DNA of 64,000 nucleotides from Streptantibioticus parmotrematis. Its GTDB lineage: Bacteria; Actinomycetota; Actinomycetes; Streptomycetales; Streptomycetaceae. Below, piece by piece: positions 44,947 through 54,931 of this stretch (positions are counted from its first letter, which is position 1; each line of letters starts with the position of its first letter). The stretch spans positions 124,001 to 188,000 of the forward strand of contig NZ_JAINVZ010000009.1 in the NCBI RefSeq assembly GCF_019890615.1, read 5' to 3'. A model generated the notes under the pieces. The model worked only from the letters and a program-made list of their open reading frames with translations, was not told the origin of the DNA and searched no databases. The position numbers and the translations under genes are program-made.

Positions 44947-44960
44947 GAGGGGGGCGCGTC

Positions 44961-45218
44961 ATGAAGACGATGACCTATTCCGAGTCCCGTGCGCGCTACG
45001 CCGAGGTACTCAACTCCGTCAATGACGACCGCGAAGAAGTCGTCATCACCAGGGCCGGACACGATCCCGTCGTCATCGTCTCGCTGGCCGACTACGAGTC
45101 CCTCAAGGAGACGGCCTACCTCCTGCGGAGCCCCGCGAACGCCCGTCGGCTGCTCGCATCCATCGAGGAGCTGGAGAACGGCGGCGGCACGGTGCGCGAC
45201 CTGGCGACCGAGGAGTGA
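44961..45218 (+). CDS. yefM: Antitoxin YefM (Phd/YefM family)
   Basis: This 85-residue antitoxin has an N-terminal DNA-binding domain (MKTMTYSESRARYAEVLNSV, VVITRAGHDPVVIVSLADYESL) and a C-terminal tail that should wrap the toxin (RRLLASIEELENG). Its codon use is less GC-rich (TAT, AAT, GAA, GTA), unlike its neighbours, suggesting transfer. It ends in GAGTGA, overlapping the yoeB GTG. A YefM/YoeB pair has been described in S. lividans. Confidence 0.93.
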   Translation: MKTMTYSESRARYAEVLNSVNDDREEVVITRAGHDPVVIVSLADYESLKETAYLLRSPANARRLLASIEELENGGGTVRDLATEE

Positions 45219-45472
45219 AGATCACGTTCGCCTCCCGGGCGTGGGAGGACTACCTGTGGTGGCAGCTCCAGGACCGCAAGGTCCTCAAGCGGATCAACAC
45301 CCTGGTCGCGGACATCGCCCGGAACGGCAACGAGGGCATCGGCAAACCGGAGCCGCTCGAGCACGGGTTCCAGGGCTATTGGTCGCGCCGCATCACTGAT
45401 GAGCACCGACTGGCCTACAAGGCCACCGAGGACACCGTTCTCATCGCGCAATGCCGCTACCACCACGAGTGA
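45215..45472 (+). CDS. yoeB: Toxin YoeB (ribosome-dependent mRNA endoribonuclease)
   Basis: This 85-residue toxin cuts mRNA at the ribosomal A site. Aligned with E. coli YoeB it keeps Glu46 (KPEPLEH), Arg65 (DEHRLAY) and His83 (RYHHE). The catalytic-region tyrosine 84 is histidine here, and an extra Glu ends the protein. WSRRITDEHRL is nearly identical to the E. coli protein. The GTG start is in a GTGA overlap with yefM, which keeps antitoxin in excess. Confidence 0.93.
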   Translation: MKITFASRAWEDYLWWQLQDRKVLKRINTLVADIARNGNEGIGKPEPLEHGFQGYWSRRITDEHRLAYKATEDTVLIAQCRYHHE

Positions 45473-47071: not shown

Positions 47072-48322
47072 TCAGACCTCCCGGCCGTCCATGCCGTACG
47101 CCACCCCGTACTGCGCGATCACCCGCGTCGTCCCGGTCGGCGGGTGCAGCCGGGTCGGGGCCGTGGTGTGGATGGGGAACAGCACCTGCGGACGGGTGCG
47201 CTCCAGCAGGACGTGCAGGTCGTCCTGGGTGGCGTGGCCGGAGCAGCCGATCTGCCGCAGCGGGACCGACAGCGCCGCGAGCCAGTCGGTGAACGGCGCC
47301 CAGCGCGGCTCGAAGGGGCCGAGCGGTTCGCCGTTGGCGTGCACGAAGACGCTGTCCGGCCGCCCGGGGCCGACCGGCAGGTCGAGCAGCGCGGGCAGGT
47401 CGTCCGGGTCGGGCACGACCACGTAGCCGCCGGGGTCGCCCTGCGGCAGCCCTTCCGCCACGTCGGCCACCCCCAACTCCCGCAGGAACGCGGCGACTCG
47501 GGCAGGCCACAGCACCGTGCGCCCGGCGTCCTTCGCCAGCGCCAGGAACTCGTGGACGCGTTCGACGTCACGCGGGTAGAGCGAGAGCAGGACCAGCCCG
47601 GGGGTCTCTGCCAGCGCCGCGGCGAAGTCGCGTGCCACGTCGTCCTCGGTCCGTACCGGCCCGGTCATGTCCCAGCCCAGCGTGGTGCCCTCGGTCACCA
47701 GCACGTCGCACGCGGCGGCGCGGTCGGCGAACGCCCAGGAACGCTCCGGGTGCCGCCCGTGGAAGCGGATGTCGCCGGTGAACGCGAGCGTGCCGCCGCT
47801 GGTGTGCACGAGGTAGCCGGACGCGCCGGGCACGTCGTGGTCGACCGGCACGCACTCCACCCGCATCGGGCCCACGGTGACCTGCTCCCCCGCCGTCAGC
47901 CGCCGCCAGTCGGGGTCGCCGCCGGGCAGCCCCTGGCCCGAGGCGTCCAGCGCGCGCAGCACGTCCACGGCGTCGGTGTGCGCGTACACCGGGGTCTCGG
48001 GGCGCACCCAGCCCGCGAGGCCGACGTGGTCGATGTGCGGGTGGCTGACGAAGACGGAGGTGGGTTCGGCGGGCGCGGCCAGCGGGTCGCCCTCCGCCAG
48101 CACGGCGGGGTCGAAGAGTCCCGGCACGCGCGGCGCCGCCCCCATCCGCAGCCGGTCCGCCAACTCCCGTCCCGGGCGCGGCCGTACGGGCAGCCGGAAC
48201 AGGTCGGCGCCGGACGGGATGTCCATGCCGATGTCGAGCATCACCCGGTGGCCGCCGTCGCGGATGGTGATCTTGCTTCCGCCGATGACGCCGAGTCCGC
48301 CCCAGAACTCGATCAGGACCAT
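47072..48322 (-). CDS. Metallo-hydrolase with MBL and beta-CASP-like parts
   Basis: This 416-residue protein has an MBL domain with the metal motif SHPHIDHVGLAG (HxHxDH) and LAFTGDIRFHG. A middle segment (LVLLSLYPRDVERVHEFL) and the C-terminal IGCSGHATQDDLHVLLE and VLFPIHT resemble the beta-CASP/RNase J arrangement. It could be a nuclease or a phosphodiesterase; its substrate is unknown. Its ATG lies inside the end of the HAD gene (10-base overlap) with AAGGAG there, so it is the last gene of the importer operon. Confidence 0.83.
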   Translation of the reverse strand: MVLIEFWGGLGVIGGSKITIRDGGHRVMLDIGMDIPSGADLFRLPVRPRPGRELADRLRMGAAPRVPGLFDPAVLAEGDPLAAPAEPTSVFVSHPHIDHVGLAGWVRPETPVYAHTDAVDVLRALDASGQGLPGGDPDWRRLTAGEQVTVGPMRVECVPVDHDVPGASGYLVHTSGGTLAFTGDIRFHGRHPERSWAFADRAAACDVLVTEGTTLGWDMTGPVRTEDDVARDFAAALAETPGLVLLSLYPRDVERVHEFLALAKDAGRTVLWPARVAAFLRELGVADVAEGLPQGDPGGYVVVPDPDDLPALLDLPVGPGRPDSVFVHANGEPLGPFEPRWAPFTDWLAALSVPLRQIGCSGHATQDDLHVLLERTRPQVLFPIHTTAPTRLHPPTGTTRVIAQYGVAYGMDGREV

Positions 48323-49152
48323 GGGGTCAGCTCCTTCGTGGTGTTCCGCGACGCGGACGTGGTGTCCAGACCCGCCCAGGCGCGCAGTGCGGGCAGCAGG
48401 CCCTCGATGTCGGGCGCGATCGCGGTGGCCGGGCCGTCCGCGCGGCCGAAGCGGTCGATGTAGCCGGTGGGGACGTCGAGTTCGGCCGCGGGCTCGATGT
48501 CGTTGGTCCAGTGGTCGCCGACGGCGAAGAGCGCGCCGGGCTCCCGGGTGGGGTGGTTCTCGCCGACCGCGCCGGACGCGGGGCCGCCGTCGACGCCCGG
48601 GCCCAACTCGGCCCGCAGCAGCCTGCGCAGGCCCTCCGGCTTGGCGGTGGAGGAGACGACCATGCTCAGCAACGGGCGCAGTTCCAGCCGGTCGAGCAGC
48701 GTGTCCAGGCCCGCGGCCGGACTGTTGGTCGCCAGCACCACCCGCACCCCCCCGCCGCGCAGTGCGGTCAGCAGGTCGCGGTAGCCGCCGGGCACCTCGA
48801 GATCGCACGCGTCCGTCGCCATGTGGACGCGGGTGGCGTCGAACGCGGCGTTCAGCGTGTCCAACGTCAACGCGTGCACGCGCAGGCCGAGTTGGGCGAC
48901 CACGTCCCAGCCGTCGATGGCCCGGCGCAGCACGTCCGCCTCGGCCGGGTTCGCCGAACGCAGCGCGGCGGTCGGCGAACCCAGCTCCAGGTAGCGGTCG
49001 ACCGCGGCGAGCATGGCGGTGCGGGCGGTCGCCGGCAGGGCGCGGGCGGCGTGGGCCGCGTAGTGGCGGATGGGCGCGTCGCCGCGGTAGAGGGTGCCGT
49101 CGAAGTCGGTCACCAGGACGAGCGACGCGGCCTGCGGACGGGGTTCAGCCAC
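48313..49152 (-). CDS. HAD-family hydrolase
   Basis: This 279-residue phosphatase-like protein has all HAD motifs: VTDFDGTLYRGD (nucleophile Asp), VVLATNSPAAG, KPEGLRRLL and VGDHWTNDIEPAAE. A helical cap lies between the first two. The GTG start (VAEPRPQAAS) overlaps the upstream permease by eight bases. Its place after the sugar-type importer suggests it removes a phosphate from the imported compound; this is inference. Confidence 0.88.
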   Translation of the reverse strand: MAEPRPQAASLVLVTDFDGTLYRGDAPIRHYAAHAARALPATARTAMLAAVDRYLELGSPTAALRSANPAEADVLRRAIDGWDVVAQLGLRVHALTLDTLNAAFDATRVHMATDACDLEVPGGYRDLLTALRGGGVRVVLATNSPAAGLDTLLDRLELRPLLSMVVSSTAKPEGLRRLLRAELGPGVDGGPASGAVGENHPTREPGALFAVGDHWTNDIEPAAELDVPTGYIDRFGRADGPATAIAPDIEGLLPALRAWAGLDTTSASRNTTKELTPWS

Positions 49153-50140
49153 GGACGCCTCCGGCGGTGGACATGGCGCCGGTGATGAACTGGCGCTGCA
49201 GGACGAGGAAGAAGGCCAGCACCGGCACCGTGGTGAACACCACCGCCGCCGACAGACCGGTGTAGTCGGTGCCGTCGGTCCCGGCGAACGCCGCGAGGCC
49301 GACCTCCACCGGCTGCACACCGGGACTGCTGGTCATCAGGAACGGCCACAGGAAGGAGTTCCAGGTGGCGAGGAAGACGTTGATGAGGATGATCACGATC
49401 GCCGGGCGGACCAGCGGGACGCCGATCGACCAGAACATCCGCAGCCGCGAGGCGCCGTCCAGCTCGGCGGCGTCGAAGATCTCCTCGGGCAGCCCGGCGA
49501 AGAACTGCCGGACCAGGAAGATCCCGAAGACGCTCGCGCCCCACGGGACGATCTGGATCCAGTAGGTGTCCAGCCAGTGGATGTCCTTGGCGATCAGGTA
49601 GTCGGGGATGATCAGTACCGTACCGGGGATCATCAGCACCGCCATGACCAGCCCGAACAGCATGTTCCTGCCCCGGAACCGCATCAGCCCGAAGGCGAAT
49701 CCGGCCAGCAGCGAGGTGGCGAGCGCCAGCGCGGCGGTGGCGCTCGCGATCAGCAGCGTGTTGAGGAACAGCCGCATCCACGGCGCCGCGTCCCACGCCC
49801 TGCGGTAGTTGTCGAAGTGCCAGTGCGGCAGCAGGATCGCGGCGAGCGAGCCGTTGTCACTGGCCCGGTTCAGCGAGGCGACGGCCACGTAGTAGAACGG
49901 CAGCAGGAACACCAGCGAGACGACCACCACGAGCGCGCTCCGCAGGACCCGGCGGCTCCGGCGGTCTCCGGGACGCGCGGGAAAGCGGACAGGGCGGGGG
50001 GCGCGGGAGGCTCGGACGGCGCGCGGGGCGCGGACGGCGCGCGGGGCGCGGACGGCGCGGGCCGTGCTCGGGCCGGGGCGCCCGGCGGCGCGCGCGGTGG
50101 GCGCGCCGCCGCCGGATCCGCCGTTCGCCGGGGTCGTCAT
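49145..50140 (-). CDS. Carbohydrate-type ABC importer permease (MalG/UgpE class)
   Basis: This 331-residue permease has six membrane helices after a long N-terminal tail rich in Arg-Ala-Pro-Val repeats. The EAA loop that contacts the ATPase is EEIFDAAELDGASRLRMFWSIGVP. The ATG overlaps the binding-protein stop as ATGA. No ATPase gene is present; Streptomyces sugar importers commonly share the ATPase MsiK. The substrate is unknown. Confidence 0.9.
   Translation of the reverse strand: MTTPANGGSGGGAPTARAAGRPGPSTARAVRAPRAVRAPRAVRASRAPRPVRFPARPGDRRSRRVLRSALVVVVSLVFLLPFYYVAVASLNRASDNGSLAAILLPHWHFDNYRRAWDAAPWMRLFLNTLLIASATAALALATSLLAGFAFGLMRFRGRNMLFGLVMAVLMIPGTVLIIPDYLIAKDIHWLDTYWIQIVPWGASVFGIFLVRQFFAGLPEEIFDAAELDGASRLRMFWSIGVPLVRPAIVIILINVFLATWNSFLWPFLMTSSPGVQPVEVGLAAFAGTDGTDYTGLSAAVVFTTVPVLAFFLVLQRQFITGAMSTAGGVRG
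50013..50060 (-). repeat. 18-bp tandem repeat in the permease N-terminal tail
   Basis: CGGACGGCGCGCGGGGCG occurs twice in perfect tandem (50013-50030 and 50031-50048), with a partial third copy. It encodes the RAVRAP repeats of the tail, in frame (18 = 6 codons). Confidence 0.75.
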
Positions 50141-51450
50141 CCCGCCGCCTTCGCGGCCTGCGCGGTGCGCTGCGCGTCGGCCAGCGCGCTCGCCGGGTCC
50201 GCGCCCTTGTCCACCACGTCCTGGATCGCGACGGCCAGCGCGCCCTCCGACTTCTCGATCCAGCCGTACGGCGGCTCGGACTTGGCGTACTGCAACGCGC
50301 TCACGGCGCCGGTCACCCACGGGTTCTTGGACACGTACGCGGACATGTCCGGCAGCGCCTTCGCGGTGACGGGCAGGTAGCCGGTGCCCGCGGCCCACGT
50401 CGCCTGCTGGGCGGGCTCGGTGAGGTACTGCATGTACTTCCACGCGGCGTTCTGCTGCGCCTTCGACGCGCTCGCGAACATCGTCAGGTCGGTGCCGGTG
50501 AGGATGTTGGCCTTGCCCGCGGGGCCGGCCGGCAGGTCCTGGGTGCCCAGGGCGAACTTGCCGCCGACCGCCTGGCCCTCGTAGTAGTAGCCCGCGCTGG
50601 TGGACACGTCGAACGCGCCCTTCTTCGCGGCGAGCGCGGTCTCCCCCGGGTAGTCGGTGCCCAGCGCCAGCGCGCCGGACTTCTTCAGGCCCGCGAGGTA
50701 GCCGAGTGCCTTGACCATGGTCGGGGCGGTGAACTGCGGCGAGCCGTCCTTGGCGAACGGCGCCCCGCCGTACGCGTAGTCGAGCGTCTCCAGCCAGGTG
50801 GTGCCCGCGCCGGGGCCGGACGCGGTGCCCGGGTCGACGGATATCGCGGTGACACCGCCGCCGGAGACCTTCTGCGCGACGGTGGCGAACTGGTCCCACG
50901 TCGTCGGGTACGACAGCCCCTTGGCCTTCAGCAGCGCCGGGTTGTCGAACATCACCTCGACGCTCTTGTTGAACGGCCACAGCCACAGCTTGCCGTCCGG
51001 CAGGTACAGCTCGTTCTTCACGCCCGCGTAGAAGCCGGACAGCTGCGCGGGGGTGGAGCTGCCCGCGAAGGAACTGACCGGCAGGATCACCTGGCTCTTG
51101 GCGAACGTGGCGGCCCAGTCGGGGTAGACCTGCCCGATGGTGGGCGCGTTCCCGGCGGAGACGGCGGCGGTCTCCTTCGCGTAGAGCGTCGCGTAGTCCG
51201 GCTCGACCTCCAGCTTCACCTTGATCTTGGGGTTGGCCTTCTCGAAGGCGCTGGTGAGCTGTTCCAAGGTGGTCTTCTGGGTGCTGGCGGCCATCGTCTC
51301 CATGAACGTGATGGTCGTGGTGCCGTCGGCGGAGGTGCCGCCCTGGCCGGAGGAACCGCAGCCGGCCACGGTGAACGTGGCGGCCAGCGCGGTCCCCGCG
51401 GCGAGCAACGTGGTGGTGGTACGGCGGCGACGTGAGGCGTGGGAGCGCAT
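50137..51450 (-). CDS. Extracellular solute-binding lipoprotein of the importer (MalE-like)
   Basis: This 437-residue protein is a family 1 solute-binding protein. It has a lipoprotein signal (TALAATFTVAGC, Cys31) and the fold marks FEKANPKIKVKLEVEP, GQVYPDWAATFA and KYMQYLTEPAQQATWAAGTGYLPV. Trp- and Tyr-rich segments (LWLWPFN, GYYYEG) probably line a sugar site. GAGAAAGG precedes the ATG. It stands between the two permease genes, which is not the usual malE-malF-malG order. Confidence 0.9.
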   Translation of the reverse strand: MRSHASRRRRTTTTLLAAGTALAATFTVAGCGSSGQGGTSADGTTTITFMETMAASTQKTTLEQLTSAFEKANPKIKVKLEVEPDYATLYAKETAAVSAGNAPTIGQVYPDWAATFAKSQVILPVSSFAGSSTPAQLSGFYAGVKNELYLPDGKLWLWPFNKSVEVMFDNPALLKAKGLSYPTTWDQFATVAQKVSGGGVTAISVDPGTASGPGAGTTWLETLDYAYGGAPFAKDGSPQFTAPTMVKALGYLAGLKKSGALALGTDYPGETALAAKKGAFDVSTSAGYYYEGQAVGGKFALGTQDLPAGPAGKANILTGTDLTMFASASKAQQNAAWKYMQYLTEPAQQATWAAGTGYLPVTAKALPDMSAYVSKNPWVTGAVSALQYAKSEPPYGWIEKSEGALAVAIQDVVDKGADPASALADAQRTAQAAKAAG

Positions 51451-51488
51451 GGGTGGGCCTTTCTCACGGGGGACGTACGGAGGGTGGG

Positions 51489-51516
51489 CGTACGGCGAAG
51501 GGGTGGGCGCCGTACG
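51489..51516 (-). other. Hairpin between the first permease and the binding-protein gene
   Basis: A perfect 9-bp stem (CGTACGGCG with CGCCGTACG) and a 10-base loop lie in the only real gap of the operon. It could stabilise the 5' end of the binding-protein message so that more of that protein is made. Confidence 0.4.
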
Positions 51517-51560
51517 GGGATCGGGGGTGCGCGCGGGTGGCATGGGGGCCGCCCGCGCGG

Positions 51561-52769
51561 TCAGGCCGCCGCGGCGATGCGGCTGGTGGTGCGGCGTTGC
51601 AGCAGCGTGAACCCGGCGATCACCACGAACAGCACCAGCGCCAGCGCGGCCCCGTAGCCGGTGTCGAAGAAGACGAACGCCTCCTGGTAGACGAGATAGC
51701 TCAAGGTGGTCGTGGCGTAGACCGGACCGCCCTGGCTCATCTCGTAGAACTGGGTGAACGCCTGCAACGACGTGATGCTGGTGATGATCACCACGAACGC
51801 GGTGACCGGGCGCAGTTGGGGCCAGGTGACGTGCCAGAACTCCTGCCAGGCGGTCGCGCCGTCGACGCGGGCCGCCTCGCCGAGTTCGGGTGAGATGACG
51901 GCGAGTCCGCCGAGGAACAGCACGACGGTGAAGCCGACTTCGTGCCACAGGCTGTAGACGATCACCGAGGGCATCGCCCAGGACGCCGACTGGAGCCACA
52001 GCGGCTGCGGCAGGTGCGCGGCTTTCAGCACGGCGTCCGCCAGGCCGAACTGCGGGTTGAAGATCCAGACCCAGGCGAGCGAGGTGGCCACCACGGGCGT
52101 CGCGTAGGGCGCGAAGATCGCCACCCGGGACGCGCTCATCAGCCGCCCGCCGCGTTGCAGCAGCAGCGCGAGCGCCAGCGACAGGGCGGTGCCGCCGATG
52201 ACCGTGCCCGCGGTGAAGTAGAGCGAGTGCCAGGCGCCGGTCAGGAAGCTCGGGGTGCTGTGGCCGAGCAGGCTGCGGTAGTTGGCGAGCCCGATGTAGC
52301 GGGACATCGCCGCGTTGAGCGTGTTCCAGTGGAAGAAGCTGATGTAGAGGGTGTACGCGGTGGGGCCGATGGTGAACACGGCGAAGACGGCGAGCGCCGG
52401 GGCCGTGTAGAGCCACCCCATCGGACTCTCCCGCACACGACGGACGCGACGCACGCGACGCACGCGCTTGCCGCGGACCCAGGGGCTCGGGCGGTCGGGA
52501 CTGACGGCGACGTCGGCGGAGGTCCGGCTGCTCGCGGCGTCGGGGTGTTCGGACGCGTCGGCGGGGTCGGGGTGGGCGGAGCCTTCGGCAGGACCCGTGG
52601 CCTCGGCGCGTTCGGCTCCGGCCGCTCCGGCCGCTCCGTCCTCGCCGGGAGCCCCGCCCCGGCGGGCCTGCGCCGAAGCCTTCCCGGGGGGCACGGCCGC
52701 GCGGCCGTGCCCCCTCCGTTCCGGGGGCGTTGACGCTCCGGATCCGGTCGTCGTCGCTTCCTGTGACAT
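51561..52769 (-). CDS. Carbohydrate-type ABC importer permease (MalF/UgpA class)
   Basis: This 402-residue permease has a long disordered cytoplasmic N-terminus (about residues 1-110, ending in the repeated VRRVRRVRRVRE) and then six helices starting MGWLYTAPALAVFAVFTIGP. The EAA loop is LGEAARVDGATAWQEFWHVTWP. The ATG (MSQEATTTGS) has GGAG nine bases before it. It is the first gene of a five-gene operon reaching 47072. Confidence 0.9.
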   Translation of the reverse strand: MSQEATTTGSGASTPPERRGHGRAAVPPGKASAQARRGGAPGEDGAAGAAGAERAEATGPAEGSAHPDPADASEHPDAASSRTSADVAVSPDRPSPWVRGKRVRRVRRVRRVRESPMGWLYTAPALAVFAVFTIGPTAYTLYISFFHWNTLNAAMSRYIGLANYRSLLGHSTPSFLTGAWHSLYFTAGTVIGGTALSLALALLLQRGGRLMSASRVAIFAPYATPVVATSLAWVWIFNPQFGLADAVLKAAHLPQPLWLQSASWAMPSVIVYSLWHEVGFTVVLFLGGLAVISPELGEAARVDGATAWQEFWHVTWPQLRPVTAFVVIITSITSLQAFTQFYEMSQGGPVYATTTLSYLVYQEAFVFFDTGYGAALALVLFVVIAGFTLLQRRTTSRIAAAA

Positions 52770-53110
52770 GCCTGGACACTCCACACGCTGGGCTGCGCTC
52801 GCGGACGACCGCGCCTCGTGGCGGTCGCGAGTAGCTAAACGCGCGTAGATATCAGCGAGGCAACCATCCAGCTAACATTCCATGACGCGCTGGAAATTCG
52901 GTGGACTCATATGAAATCCTGAAAGGCTGCCCAACTCCCGCCCTTCTGGCGGCAGTCGGGGGCATGGCGGAAAGCGACGGACCGCGCTGGTCGGCACCGG
53001 CTCGGCGCGCGGCCCCATGCGGGCCACCCAACTGCGAACCACTGCGGGCCGCTGCGGGCCACCCAACTTCCGCATGACTAAGCGGACTTGGTCTGCCCGA
53101 CCGTGAACGC
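52770..53110 (-). promoter_or_regulatory. Upstream region of the importer operon
   Basis: This holds the operon promoter, but only weak hexamers are seen (TATCTA on the minus strand near 52845). A dyad TTCCA-n8-TGGAA (52878-52895) lies about 110 bases before the first gene and may be an operator of a LacI- or GntR-type regulator, which is not encoded nearby. TGCGGGCCACCCAACT is duplicated at 53018-53033 and 53053-53068. No gene is seen. Confidence 0.4.
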
Positions 53111-54475
53111 CTAAGCCTGCGTCCTCAGATCGACGATGCGGCGGATCTTGCCGACCGAACGCTCCAGGGACTCCGGGTCCTCCACGACGACCTCCACGCT
53201 CACCCCGACGCCGTCCTTGACCGCCCTGGCTATCTCGCGTGCCGCGTCCGCACGCCGGTCCGCGGCGCAGCCGGGCCGCGCCTCGACGCGTACGGTCAGG
53301 TGGTCCAGCCGGCCGTGCCGGATCAGCCGGAGCTGGAAGTGCGGGGCGACCCCGGGGGTGCGCAGCACGATCTCCTCGATCTGGCTGGGGAAGACGTTGA
53401 CACCGCGCAGGATGATCATGTCGTCGCTGCGGCCGGTGACCTTCTCCATCCGGCGGAACGCGGGCCGCGCCGTGCCGGGCAGCAGCCGTGTCAGATCACG
53501 GGTGCGGTAGCGGATGACGGGCATCGCCTCCTTGGTGAGCGTGGTGAGCACCAGCTCGCCGGAGTCGCCGTCCGCCAGCACCTGGTCCGTCACCGGGTCG
53601 ACCACCTCGGGCAGGAAGTGGTCCTCCCAGATGTGCAGGCCGTCCTTGGTCTCCACGCACTCCTGGGCGACGCCCGGGCCCATCACCTCGGACAGCCCGT
53701 AGATGTCGACCGCGTGCAGGCCGACACGGTCCTCCAGTTCGCGCCGCATCCGCTCGGTCCACGGCTCGGCGCCGAAGATGCCGACGCGCAGCGAACTGTC
53801 GCGCGGGTCCACGCCCTGGCGCTCGAACTCGTCCAGCAGCGTGAGCATGTAGGAGGGCGTGACCATGATGATCTCGGGCTCGAAGTCCCGGATGAGCTGC
53901 ACCTGGCGCGCGGTCATGCCGCCGGAGGCCGGGATGACCGTGCAACCCGCGCGCTCGGCGCCGTAGTGCGCGCCGAGGCCGCCGGTGAACAGGCCGTATC
54001 CGTAGGCGACATGGACCTTGTGGCCGGGGCGCCCGCCCGCCGCGCGGATGCTGCGGGCCACCAGGTCGGCCCAGCGCGACAGGTCGCCGTCGGTGTAGCC
54101 GACGACGGTGGGGCGGCCGGTGGTGCCGGAGGACGCGTGGATGCGGCGGACGTCGGCCATCGGCACGGCGAAGGTGCCGAACGGGTAGTGGTCGCGCAGG
54201 TCCGCCTTGGTGGTGAACGGGAAGCGGGCCAGGTCCTCCGGCGTCCGCAGGTCGTCGGGCGTGACCCCTGCGGCGTCGAACTTGCGCCGGTACATCTCCA
54301 CGTTGTCGTACGCGTGGCGCAACGTGGCCCGCAGGCGCTCCCGTTGGAGGGCGCGCAGCTCGTCGCGGGTGAGGCGCTCGCCGTCGTCGAGCAGGTCGGC
54401 GGGGAGGGGGTCGCCGAGCGGCCGGGGCGCGGGGGCGTCCTCGGGGGCCGCGGTCGTCGGTCCGGTGCTGGTCAT
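53111..54475 (-). CDS. paaK: Phenylacetate--CoA ligase
   Basis: This adenylate-forming enzyme makes phenylacetyl-CoA from phenylacetate, CoA and ATP, 454 residues. The phosphate-binding loop is ASSGTTGRPTVVGYT and the hinge region is TGRSDDMIILRGVNVFPSQIE. The ATG (MTSTGPTTA) overlaps the paaI stop as ATGA. The oxygenase genes (paaABCDE) are not in the window, so it may serve phenylacetate uptake into another route or work with genes elsewhere. Confidence 0.93.
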   Translation of the reverse strand: MTSTGPTTAAPEDAPAPRPLGDPLPADLLDDGERLTRDELRALQRERLRATLRHAYDNVEMYRRKFDAAGVTPDDLRTPEDLARFPFTTKADLRDHYPFGTFAVPMADVRRIHASSGTTGRPTVVGYTDGDLSRWADLVARSIRAAGGRPGHKVHVAYGYGLFTGGLGAHYGAERAGCTVIPASGGMTARQVQLIRDFEPEIIMVTPSYMLTLLDEFERQGVDPRDSSLRVGIFGAEPWTERMRRELEDRVGLHAVDIYGLSEVMGPGVAQECVETKDGLHIWEDHFLPEVVDPVTDQVLADGDSGELVLTTLTKEAMPVIRYRTRDLTRLLPGTARPAFRRMEKVTGRSDDMIILRGVNVFPSQIEEIVLRTPGVAPHFQLRLIRHGRLDHLTVRVEARPGCAADRRADAAREIARAVKDGVGVSVEVVVEDPESLERSVGKIRRIVDLRTQA

Positions 54476-54894
54476 CGTGGTTCGCCACCCCTGATCGCAC
54501 GGCTGCGGCCGCGGAACTCGGCGATCACCTCGTCGCCGCGTGTCACGCTCACGTCGTAGATGCCGCTGCGGCCGGACCGGGTGCGCTCCCGGGCGGTGGC
54601 CAGCAGCTCGTCGCCGAGTCTCGCGGGGGCGACGAAGTCGATGTCCGCGGCGGCGGCCACGGTGACCGGGCCGTGGCTGTTGCAGGCGCAGGCGAAGGCG
54701 GTGTCCGCGAGGAGGAAGAGGTAGCCGCCGTGGGCGATGCCGTGCCCGTTGACCATGGCGGGGCCTATGGTCATGCGCAGCGTGGCCTCGCCGGCCGCCG
54801 CGGTCAGCAGCTCGATCCCCAGCCCGCGCGACGCCTCGTCGGCGTCGAACATCGCCCTGACGGGCCCGGCTTCGGGGTCCACGGCTCGCGTCAT
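54472..54894 (-). CDS. paaI: Hydroxyphenylacetyl-CoA thioesterase PaaI
   Basis: This hotdog-fold thioesterase has 140 residues and frees CoA from stalled phenylacetate intermediates. It has NGHGIAHGGYLFLLADTAFA, the family signature with the catalytic Asp/Asn region. The ATG (MTRAVDPEAG) is taken; a longer reading would add 12 basic residues. It precedes paaK with an ATGA overlap. Confidence 0.92.
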   Translation of the reverse strand: MTRAVDPEAGPVRAMFDADEASRGLGIELLTAAAGEATLRMTIGPAMVNGHGIAHGGYLFLLADTAFACACNSHGPVTVAAAADIDFVAPARLGDELLATARERTRSGRSGIYDVSVTRGDEVIAEFRGRSRAIRGGEPR

Positions 54895-54931
54895 GCGTCT
54901 CACCACCCTCGCGCAGCGTGCACGGCACACC

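Follow-up and report, generated by a model that had tools for sequence, protein, structure and literature searches.

A five-gene importer operon with a beta-CASP metallo-hydrolase in Streptantibioticus parmotrematis, a candidate module for phosphodiester scavenging

In Escherichia coli the ugp operon includes a phosphodiesterase, UgpQ. A protein of Thermus thermophilus, whose structures 7C0F-7C1B were reportedly presented by Chandravanshi et al. in FEBS J in 2021, is called in the entry titles a dinucleotide-binding protein of an ATP-binding cassette (ABC) transporter 'endogenously bound' to uridylyl-3'-5'-phospho-guanosine (U3G). The structure 2az4, of the Enterococcus faecalis protein EF2904, is described as having metallo-beta-lactamase (MBL) and beta-CASP domains; beta-CASP proteins are mostly nucleases. 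Here we compare with these systems a five-gene operon of Streptantibioticus parmotrematis, found in a stretch of 64,000 nucleotides (contig NZ_JAINVZ010000009.1, positions 124,001 to 188,000, forward strand; the whole stretch is called the window). It encodes an importer of the CUT1 family, a phosphatase of the HAD superfamily and a beta-CASP metallo-hydrolase. The operon probably imports and hydrolyses a phosphodiester. We lean, with reservation, towards a phosphodiester scavenging module for a short oligoribonucleotide or dinucleotide as the explanation of the whole; taken on its own, an RNA or nucleotide ligand is an evenly balanced proposition. More tentatively, as an idea that we would rather doubt than assert, we put forward a pathway devoted to the uptake and digestion of short RNA from outside the cell, in which dinucleotides or small oligoribonucleotides enter through an ABC importer and are processed by an RNase-J-like nuclease and a nucleotide phosphatase belonging to the pathway, and which is shared by actinobacteria and lactic-acid-type Bacillota.

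Gene order and distribution of the operon

The five genes form a real operon, found in several actinobacteria and rearranged in enterococci and their relatives. In the window, the genes and one upstream element lie as follows:

52839..52848, minus strand: upstream element CTACGCGCGT, 10 bases, ~70 bases before the permease-1 start
51561..52769, minus strand: permease 1 (ABC importer, UgpA/MalF type, CUT1), 402 amino acids; BPD_transp_1 1.3e-19
50137..51450, minus strand: substrate-binding lipoprotein, 437 amino acids, lipobox VAGC; SBP_bac_8 1.8e-30 (also SBP_bac_1)
49145..50140, minus strand: permease 2 (ABC importer, UgpE/MalG type), 331 amino acids; BPD_transp_1 6.6e-18
48313..49152, minus strand: HAD-superfamily phosphatase, predicted cytosolic, helical C1-type cap, 279 amino acids, GTG start; PF00702 7.2e-8
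47072..48322, minus strand: metallo-beta-lactamase/beta-CASP hydrolase, predicted cytosolic, 416 amino acids; Lactamase_B_2 2.4e-14 and RMMBL

Coordinates read from the sequence give a gap of 110 bases between permease 1 and the lipoprotein gene, followed by overlaps of 4, 8 and 10 bases. The initial annotation had described this order, strand and spacing exactly to the base. It had also claimed that the five products are made together. The order permease, lipoprotein, permease, HAD, metallo-hydrolase was found in all 24 distinct actinobacterial loci, with the tight spacing conserved; three additional loci were duplicates from contigs already counted, and one contig stops short of permease 1. 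The 8-base overlap between permease 2 and the HAD gene recurs in many of these loci, at HAD identities down to about 37-60%. Because the order recurs in every locus and this overlap is often kept despite the divergence of the HAD, the arrangement is not due to chance. The flanking genes differ between loci, and therefore the five genes are the unit; neither a conserved regulator nor any other conserved gene was found beside the actinobacterial operons.

The distribution of the operon is patchy, and it is rare in Streptomycetaceae. It is present in both genomes of the genus (2/2), the metallo-hydrolase was found at E <= 1e-40 in 23 of the 395 Streptomycetaceae genomes sampled, and in a phylum-wide sample of 396 genomes a close copy occurred only in the window's own genome. 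Loose catalytic-motif patterns of both enzymes were all satisfied in 20 of the 23 loci checked. One locus (L104) deviates from one pattern, and in two others (L115 and L119), whose operons are otherwise similar, the reading frame of the metallo-hydrolase is broken; these breaks may be assembly errors or decay.

A scan of genome contigs found the metallo-hydrolase inside a Ugp-like importer operon in 35 of 35 Bacillota loci. The order there is ATPase, permease, permease, metallo-hydrolase, lipoprotein, followed by a gene from the 5'-nucleotidase/2',3'-cyclic-nucleotide phosphodiesterase family, which is nearby in 30 of the 35 loci and on the opposite strand in some Erysipelothrix. The HAD gene is absent from the Bacillota loci, and the nucleotidase-family gene is its apparent functional stand-in. 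In E. faecalis, the protein of this family starts at the metallophosphatase core and is therefore probably cytosolic. The Bacillota carriers are Enterococcus, Erysipelothrix, Lactococcus, Granulicatella, Carnobacterium and others. The initial annotation had considered that the HAD and metallo-hydrolase genes might lie apart from the importer in most relatives. This is not so: the metallo-hydrolase accompanies the importer in each of the 59 loci (24 actinobacterial and 35 Bacillota), and the HAD gene is present in all the actinobacterial ones. One record, OL539428.1 (L017), by name the E. coli plasmid pCTX-M-55, was assigned to EF2904 through its near-identity to the 2az4 alignment. Its near-identical protein is encoded among LiaFSR and KtrC genes; the block is evidently E. 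faecalis chromosome, and the record seems mislabelled or mis-assembled.

The lipoprotein and its probable ligand

The closest solved match of the lipoprotein by sequence is the Thermus 7C0F-7C1B series (3.9e-37 for 7c14, versus 1.2e-18 for UgpB, 6x84). Foldseek, used with the predicted model (predicted local distance difference test, pLDDT, 81.9), also placed this series first (E 1.4e-29, TMt 0.86), and the E. faecalis lipoprotein likewise ranks it first. In reverse searches, the window lipoprotein was the best match in its genome both for the Thermus protein (127 bits versus 55 for the next) and for the E. faecalis lipoprotein (101 bits versus 32).

To hold the phosphate, UgpB and the binding proteins of glycerophosphocholine (GPC) and U3G use two Tyr and two Ser, which, according to a 2025 paper on UgpB, are conserved among them and not in glucose binders (PMC12718374). 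The window lipoprotein has this Tyr/Ser/Ser/Tyr signature as Y86, S163, T284 (T284/S285) and Y358, and the phosphate-contact positions are kept, with Ser or Thr at one of them, in 12 of 12 aligned operon-linked lipoproteins. Among 10 CUT1-type lipoprotein paralogues from this genome, none keeps more than a single one of these positions. As the signature is kept here and lost in the paralogues, a phosphodiester is favoured as the predicted ligand over a plain sugar. The earlier statement that such importers bring in sugars or phosphorylated sugars was too broad for this importer.

The rest of the pocket agrees with the Thermus protein in part; the pocket positions in the window lipoprotein are Y86, Y109, S163, T284, Y290 and Y358. 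FNKS, the aromatics at F79/Y246 and GT[DN] are shared with the dinucleotide binder rather than with UgpB. The Thermus pocket residues mutated in the 7C entries are Y56, F79, N81, S127, Y224, T240, Y246 and Q274; relative to this pocket, Y56, S127 and S/T240 are kept, F79 is changed to Y, and Y246 is Y or F in 11 of the 12 operon-linked lipoproteins.

We also examined the gene context of other lipoproteins, in a small, non-random sample of six with the signature and two without. Three of the six have a neighbouring phosphodiesterase from a different family, which in Pantoea is a metallophosphoesterase, in Sinorhizobium an SpdA-type enzyme and in Agrobacterium a glycerophosphodiester phosphodiesterase (GDPD). 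No phosphodiesterase stands beside the two that lack the signature. This fits the beta-CASP enzyme being another, unrelated answer to the same phosphodiesterase need. A supposed phospholipase-D phosphodiesterase by a Ugp-like importer on a Thermus plasmid (L126) was rejected, as NCBIfam describes it as polyphosphate-kinase-like, and was left uncounted.

Enzymes, importer and upstream regions

Among solved structures 2az4 is nearest to the metallo-hydrolase and matches it along the full length (5.8e-43 over residues 4-404). The protein has MBL motifs 1-4 and beta-CASP motifs A-C, and the corresponding residues (D30, H94-x-H-x-D-H99, H162, D184, E211, H363 and H385) are invariant in an alignment of 14 sequences. 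Its best NCBIfam match is RNase J, far below cut-off (41.6 and 45 bits against 400 and 820). It has no GDPD domain match; Pfam gives Lactamase_B_2/RMMBL, so it is not an enzyme of the UgpQ type. In the tree, the importer-linked beta-CASP proteins of actinobacteria and Bacillota form one clade (support 100/99), separate from the archaeal, coriobacterial-type and plasmid beta-CASP proteins; all carriers of this clade found so far are Gram-positive. Five looser plasmid-borne relatives adjoin restriction, toxin-antitoxin or other/unknown-function genes, and an importer was never seen beside these five. Full-length relatives with 25-28% identity occur in archaeal and coriobacterial-type genomes (L061, L063, L020), with no importer-gene match near them.

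The HAD protein has the motifs DFDGT, TNSP, K171 and GDHxxN intact, as do its relatives, and these four motifs together with the C1-type cap identify it as a HAD phosphatase. Its AlphaFold model (pLDDT 85.8) matches generic C1-cap HADs.

The importer is assigned to CUT1 by its two BPD_transp_1 permeases and its SBP_bac_1/8 lipoprotein, all above the Pfam cut-off. The best NCBIfam models of the permeases are UgpA for permease 1 and UgpE for permease 2, both far below cut-off. Permease 1 begins with a low-complexity N-terminal stretch of ~110 residues; both permeases carry Arg/Ala/Pro-rich low-complexity extensions at this end, encoded at 52769-52430 and 50090-49990 (minus strand). Permease 2 holds a near-tandem VRAPRA repeat, and the extension of permease 1 is shared only weakly with the sister species (56%). 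No ATPase gene lies within the operon. A homologue of the ATPase of the Enterococcus operon is encoded elsewhere in the genome (46% identity, G000:C34). Since Streptomyces CUT1 importers are usually served by a shared MsiK-type ATPase, we infer that such an ATPase powers this importer as well.

Upstream of the Bacillota operons, PHO-box-like sites (TTNACA-N5-TTNACA) were found in 13 of 32 regions at a score >=11, versus 6% in shuffled sequences, and five perfect TTNACA pairs were present, versus 0.2% in shuffles. The excess of pairs is specific to the 11-base spacing of PhoP boxes and peaks there. No catabolite-responsive element (cre) was found in the 32 Bacillota upstream regions, and an upstream search of Rfam gave just a sub-threshold match to a trypanosome snoRNA, taken as chance. 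In actinobacteria, CTACGCGCGT is common to 17 of 23 loci upstream of permease 1 and is perhaps part of a promoter or operator. An element AGCCTTTCAG occurs further upstream of it in 9 loci.

Elsewhere in the window, two overlapping small genes at 44950-45472 (plus strand) were read by eye from their translations as first a YefM-type antitoxin and then a YoeB-type toxin. The neighbours at 53111-54930 (minus strand) resemble a phenylacetate-CoA-ligase-type AMP-binding enzyme and a 4HBT thioesterase; they are not conserved beside the operons of relatives.

Competing explanations and comparison with known systems

In the following scheme we infer what is bound, which ATPase drives uptake, the two reactions and the sequence in which they occur, and the purpose in the cell. 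Extracellular RNases would release a short oligoribonucleotide or dinucleotide, and the lipoprotein would capture this small phosphodiester. Import would be driven by an ATPase encoded elsewhere, presumably a shared MsiK-type one. In the cytosol the beta-CASP enzyme would split the phosphodiester, in a role like that of UgpQ, and the HAD enzyme would remove the phosphate, so that nucleosides and phosphate are left. The place of the HAD would be filled in Enterococcus and its relatives by a cytosolic protein of the 5'-nucleotidase family. The scheme of uptake, cutting and dephosphorylation proposed by the initial annotation stands in outline, through synteny and the signature, with the metallo-hydrolase presumed to act before the HAD. 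Among its three candidate ligands the nucleotide fragment is now favoured, and glycerophosphodiesters and teichoic-acid (sugar-phosphate polymer) fragments keep a lesser share of probability.

Several observations weigh against scavenging of short RNA. Identity to the Thermus protein is about 35% for the window lipoprotein and 26% for that of E. faecalis. Thermus N81 and R360 are not conserved in the operon-linked lipoproteins, Q274 is kept in Bacillota and is T, S or A in most actinobacterial copies, and the alignment of Y224 is ambiguous. U3G may not be physiological in the Thermus protein itself, since the expression host supplied it ('endogenously bound'). The best genome match of UgpB is also the window lipoprotein. 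The putative nuclease role of the window beta-CASP protein rests on family membership, and the HAD fold search, with its generic C1-cap matches, gave no hint of a substrate. With regard to phosphate control, the Bacillota loci that have PHO-box-like sites include close relatives, and a search for Streptomyces PHO boxes before 23 actinobacterial operons gave scores near those of shuffled sequences.

The strongest rival ligand is a glycerophosphodiester, followed by teichoic-acid fragments and then a plain sugar. The operon would in that case be a Ugp-like system for GPC, glycerophosphoethanolamine (GPE) or glycerophosphoglycerol, with the beta-CASP enzyme standing in for the non-homologous UgpQ and the HAD acting as a phosphatase of glycerol phosphate or of headgroup phosphates. 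UgpA, UgpE and UgpB are indeed the best NCBIfam models of the permeases and lipoprotein, but the scores lie far under the Ugp cut-offs (77.7 bits for the lipoprotein, versus 411 for the UgpB equivalog). The four phosphate-contact residues are common with UgpB, whereas its glycerol-contacting Glu, Arg and two Trp (residues from PMC12718374) are not kept: P110 is at the Glu position, the Trp pair is missing and the Arg is replaced. The presence of UgpQ in the E. coli operon and the PHO-box-like sites in Bacillota agree with such a system; the dinucleotide-binding protein is however a much better match to the lipoprotein than UgpB, and the Bacillota partner gene belongs to a nucleotidase family. 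We regard this explanation as unlikely.

It is more improbable that the operon recycles fragments of teichoic acid or other sugar-phosphate polymers of Gram-positive walls, the beta-CASP enzyme cutting imported units that are then dephosphorylated. The exclusively Gram-positive carriers of the importer-linked clade, the kept phosphate-contact residues and the possible phosphate control in Bacillota would suit it, but glycosidase, GlpQ-like and teichoic-acid gene families do not recur among the neighbours of the operon (judged by recurrence only), and the rarity in Streptomycetaceae (23/395) is easier to square with a specialised scavenger than with general recycling of the wall. Least probable of all is an importer of plain sugar with the HAD as sugar phosphatase, the beta-CASP protein either regulating at the level of mRNA or being a hydrolase that has nothing to do with the compound taken up. 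In its favour, sugars are what most CUT1 importers carry, sugar phosphates are frequent substrates of HAD phosphatases, and RNase J is the best, if far sub-threshold, NCBIfam match of the metallo-hydrolase. Yet the phosphate-contact signature is absent from the genome's other CUT1 lipoproteins, no further gene is conserved beside the operon, the Bacillota upstream regions lack cre sites, and the metallo-hydrolase is linked to the importer in every locus.

If scavenging of short RNA is correct, a function would be given to this operon type and to EF2904, whose PDB structure is filed as a hypothetical protein. A beta-CASP enzyme would serve nutrient scavenging instead of RNA processing, as another independent solution to the role of UgpQ, and the operon might allow bacteria to obtain phosphate and nucleosides from RNA in their environment. 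The operon type is already present in public genomes, and the structure of one of its enzymes (2az4) is deposited. In the open-access literature (subscription papers being largely outside) we found no functional account of the operon type, only surface-proteome or structure mentions, and no published function for EF2904; EF2903 is mentioned there only among surface lipoproteins in proteomic work (PMC3059304, PMC4501811).

Judged from its sequences, the operon would be of a Ugp-like type, a phosphodiester importer with a beta-CASP protein in the seat of the phosphodiesterase. With E. coli ugpBAECQ it has in common a CUT1 importer for phosphate esters, as predicted here, and an operon-encoded cytosolic phosphodiesterase; the differences are that UgpQ is a GDPD enzyme and not a beta-CASP protein, that ugp has its own ATPase and no HAD, and that the glycerol-contact residues differ. 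The RNase J family shares the MBL and beta-CASP motifs and the RMMBL match with the window metallo-hydrolase, whose 416 amino acids leave no room for the C-terminal domain of RNase J. Of solved structures, the Thermus dinucleotide-binding protein comes nearest to the lipoprotein in both sequence and fold, with phosphate-contact and aromatic pocket positions mostly kept, but it differs at N81, R360 and often Q274, and identity is about 35%. The EF2904/EF2903 operon of E. faecalis has a beta-CASP protein of the same clade (about 30% identity to that of the window) within a CUT1 importer operon, and a lipoprotein of the matching subfamily; it differs in having its own ATPase gene, the lipoprotein gene after that of the metallo-hydrolase, and a 5'-nucleotidase-family gene replacing the HAD.

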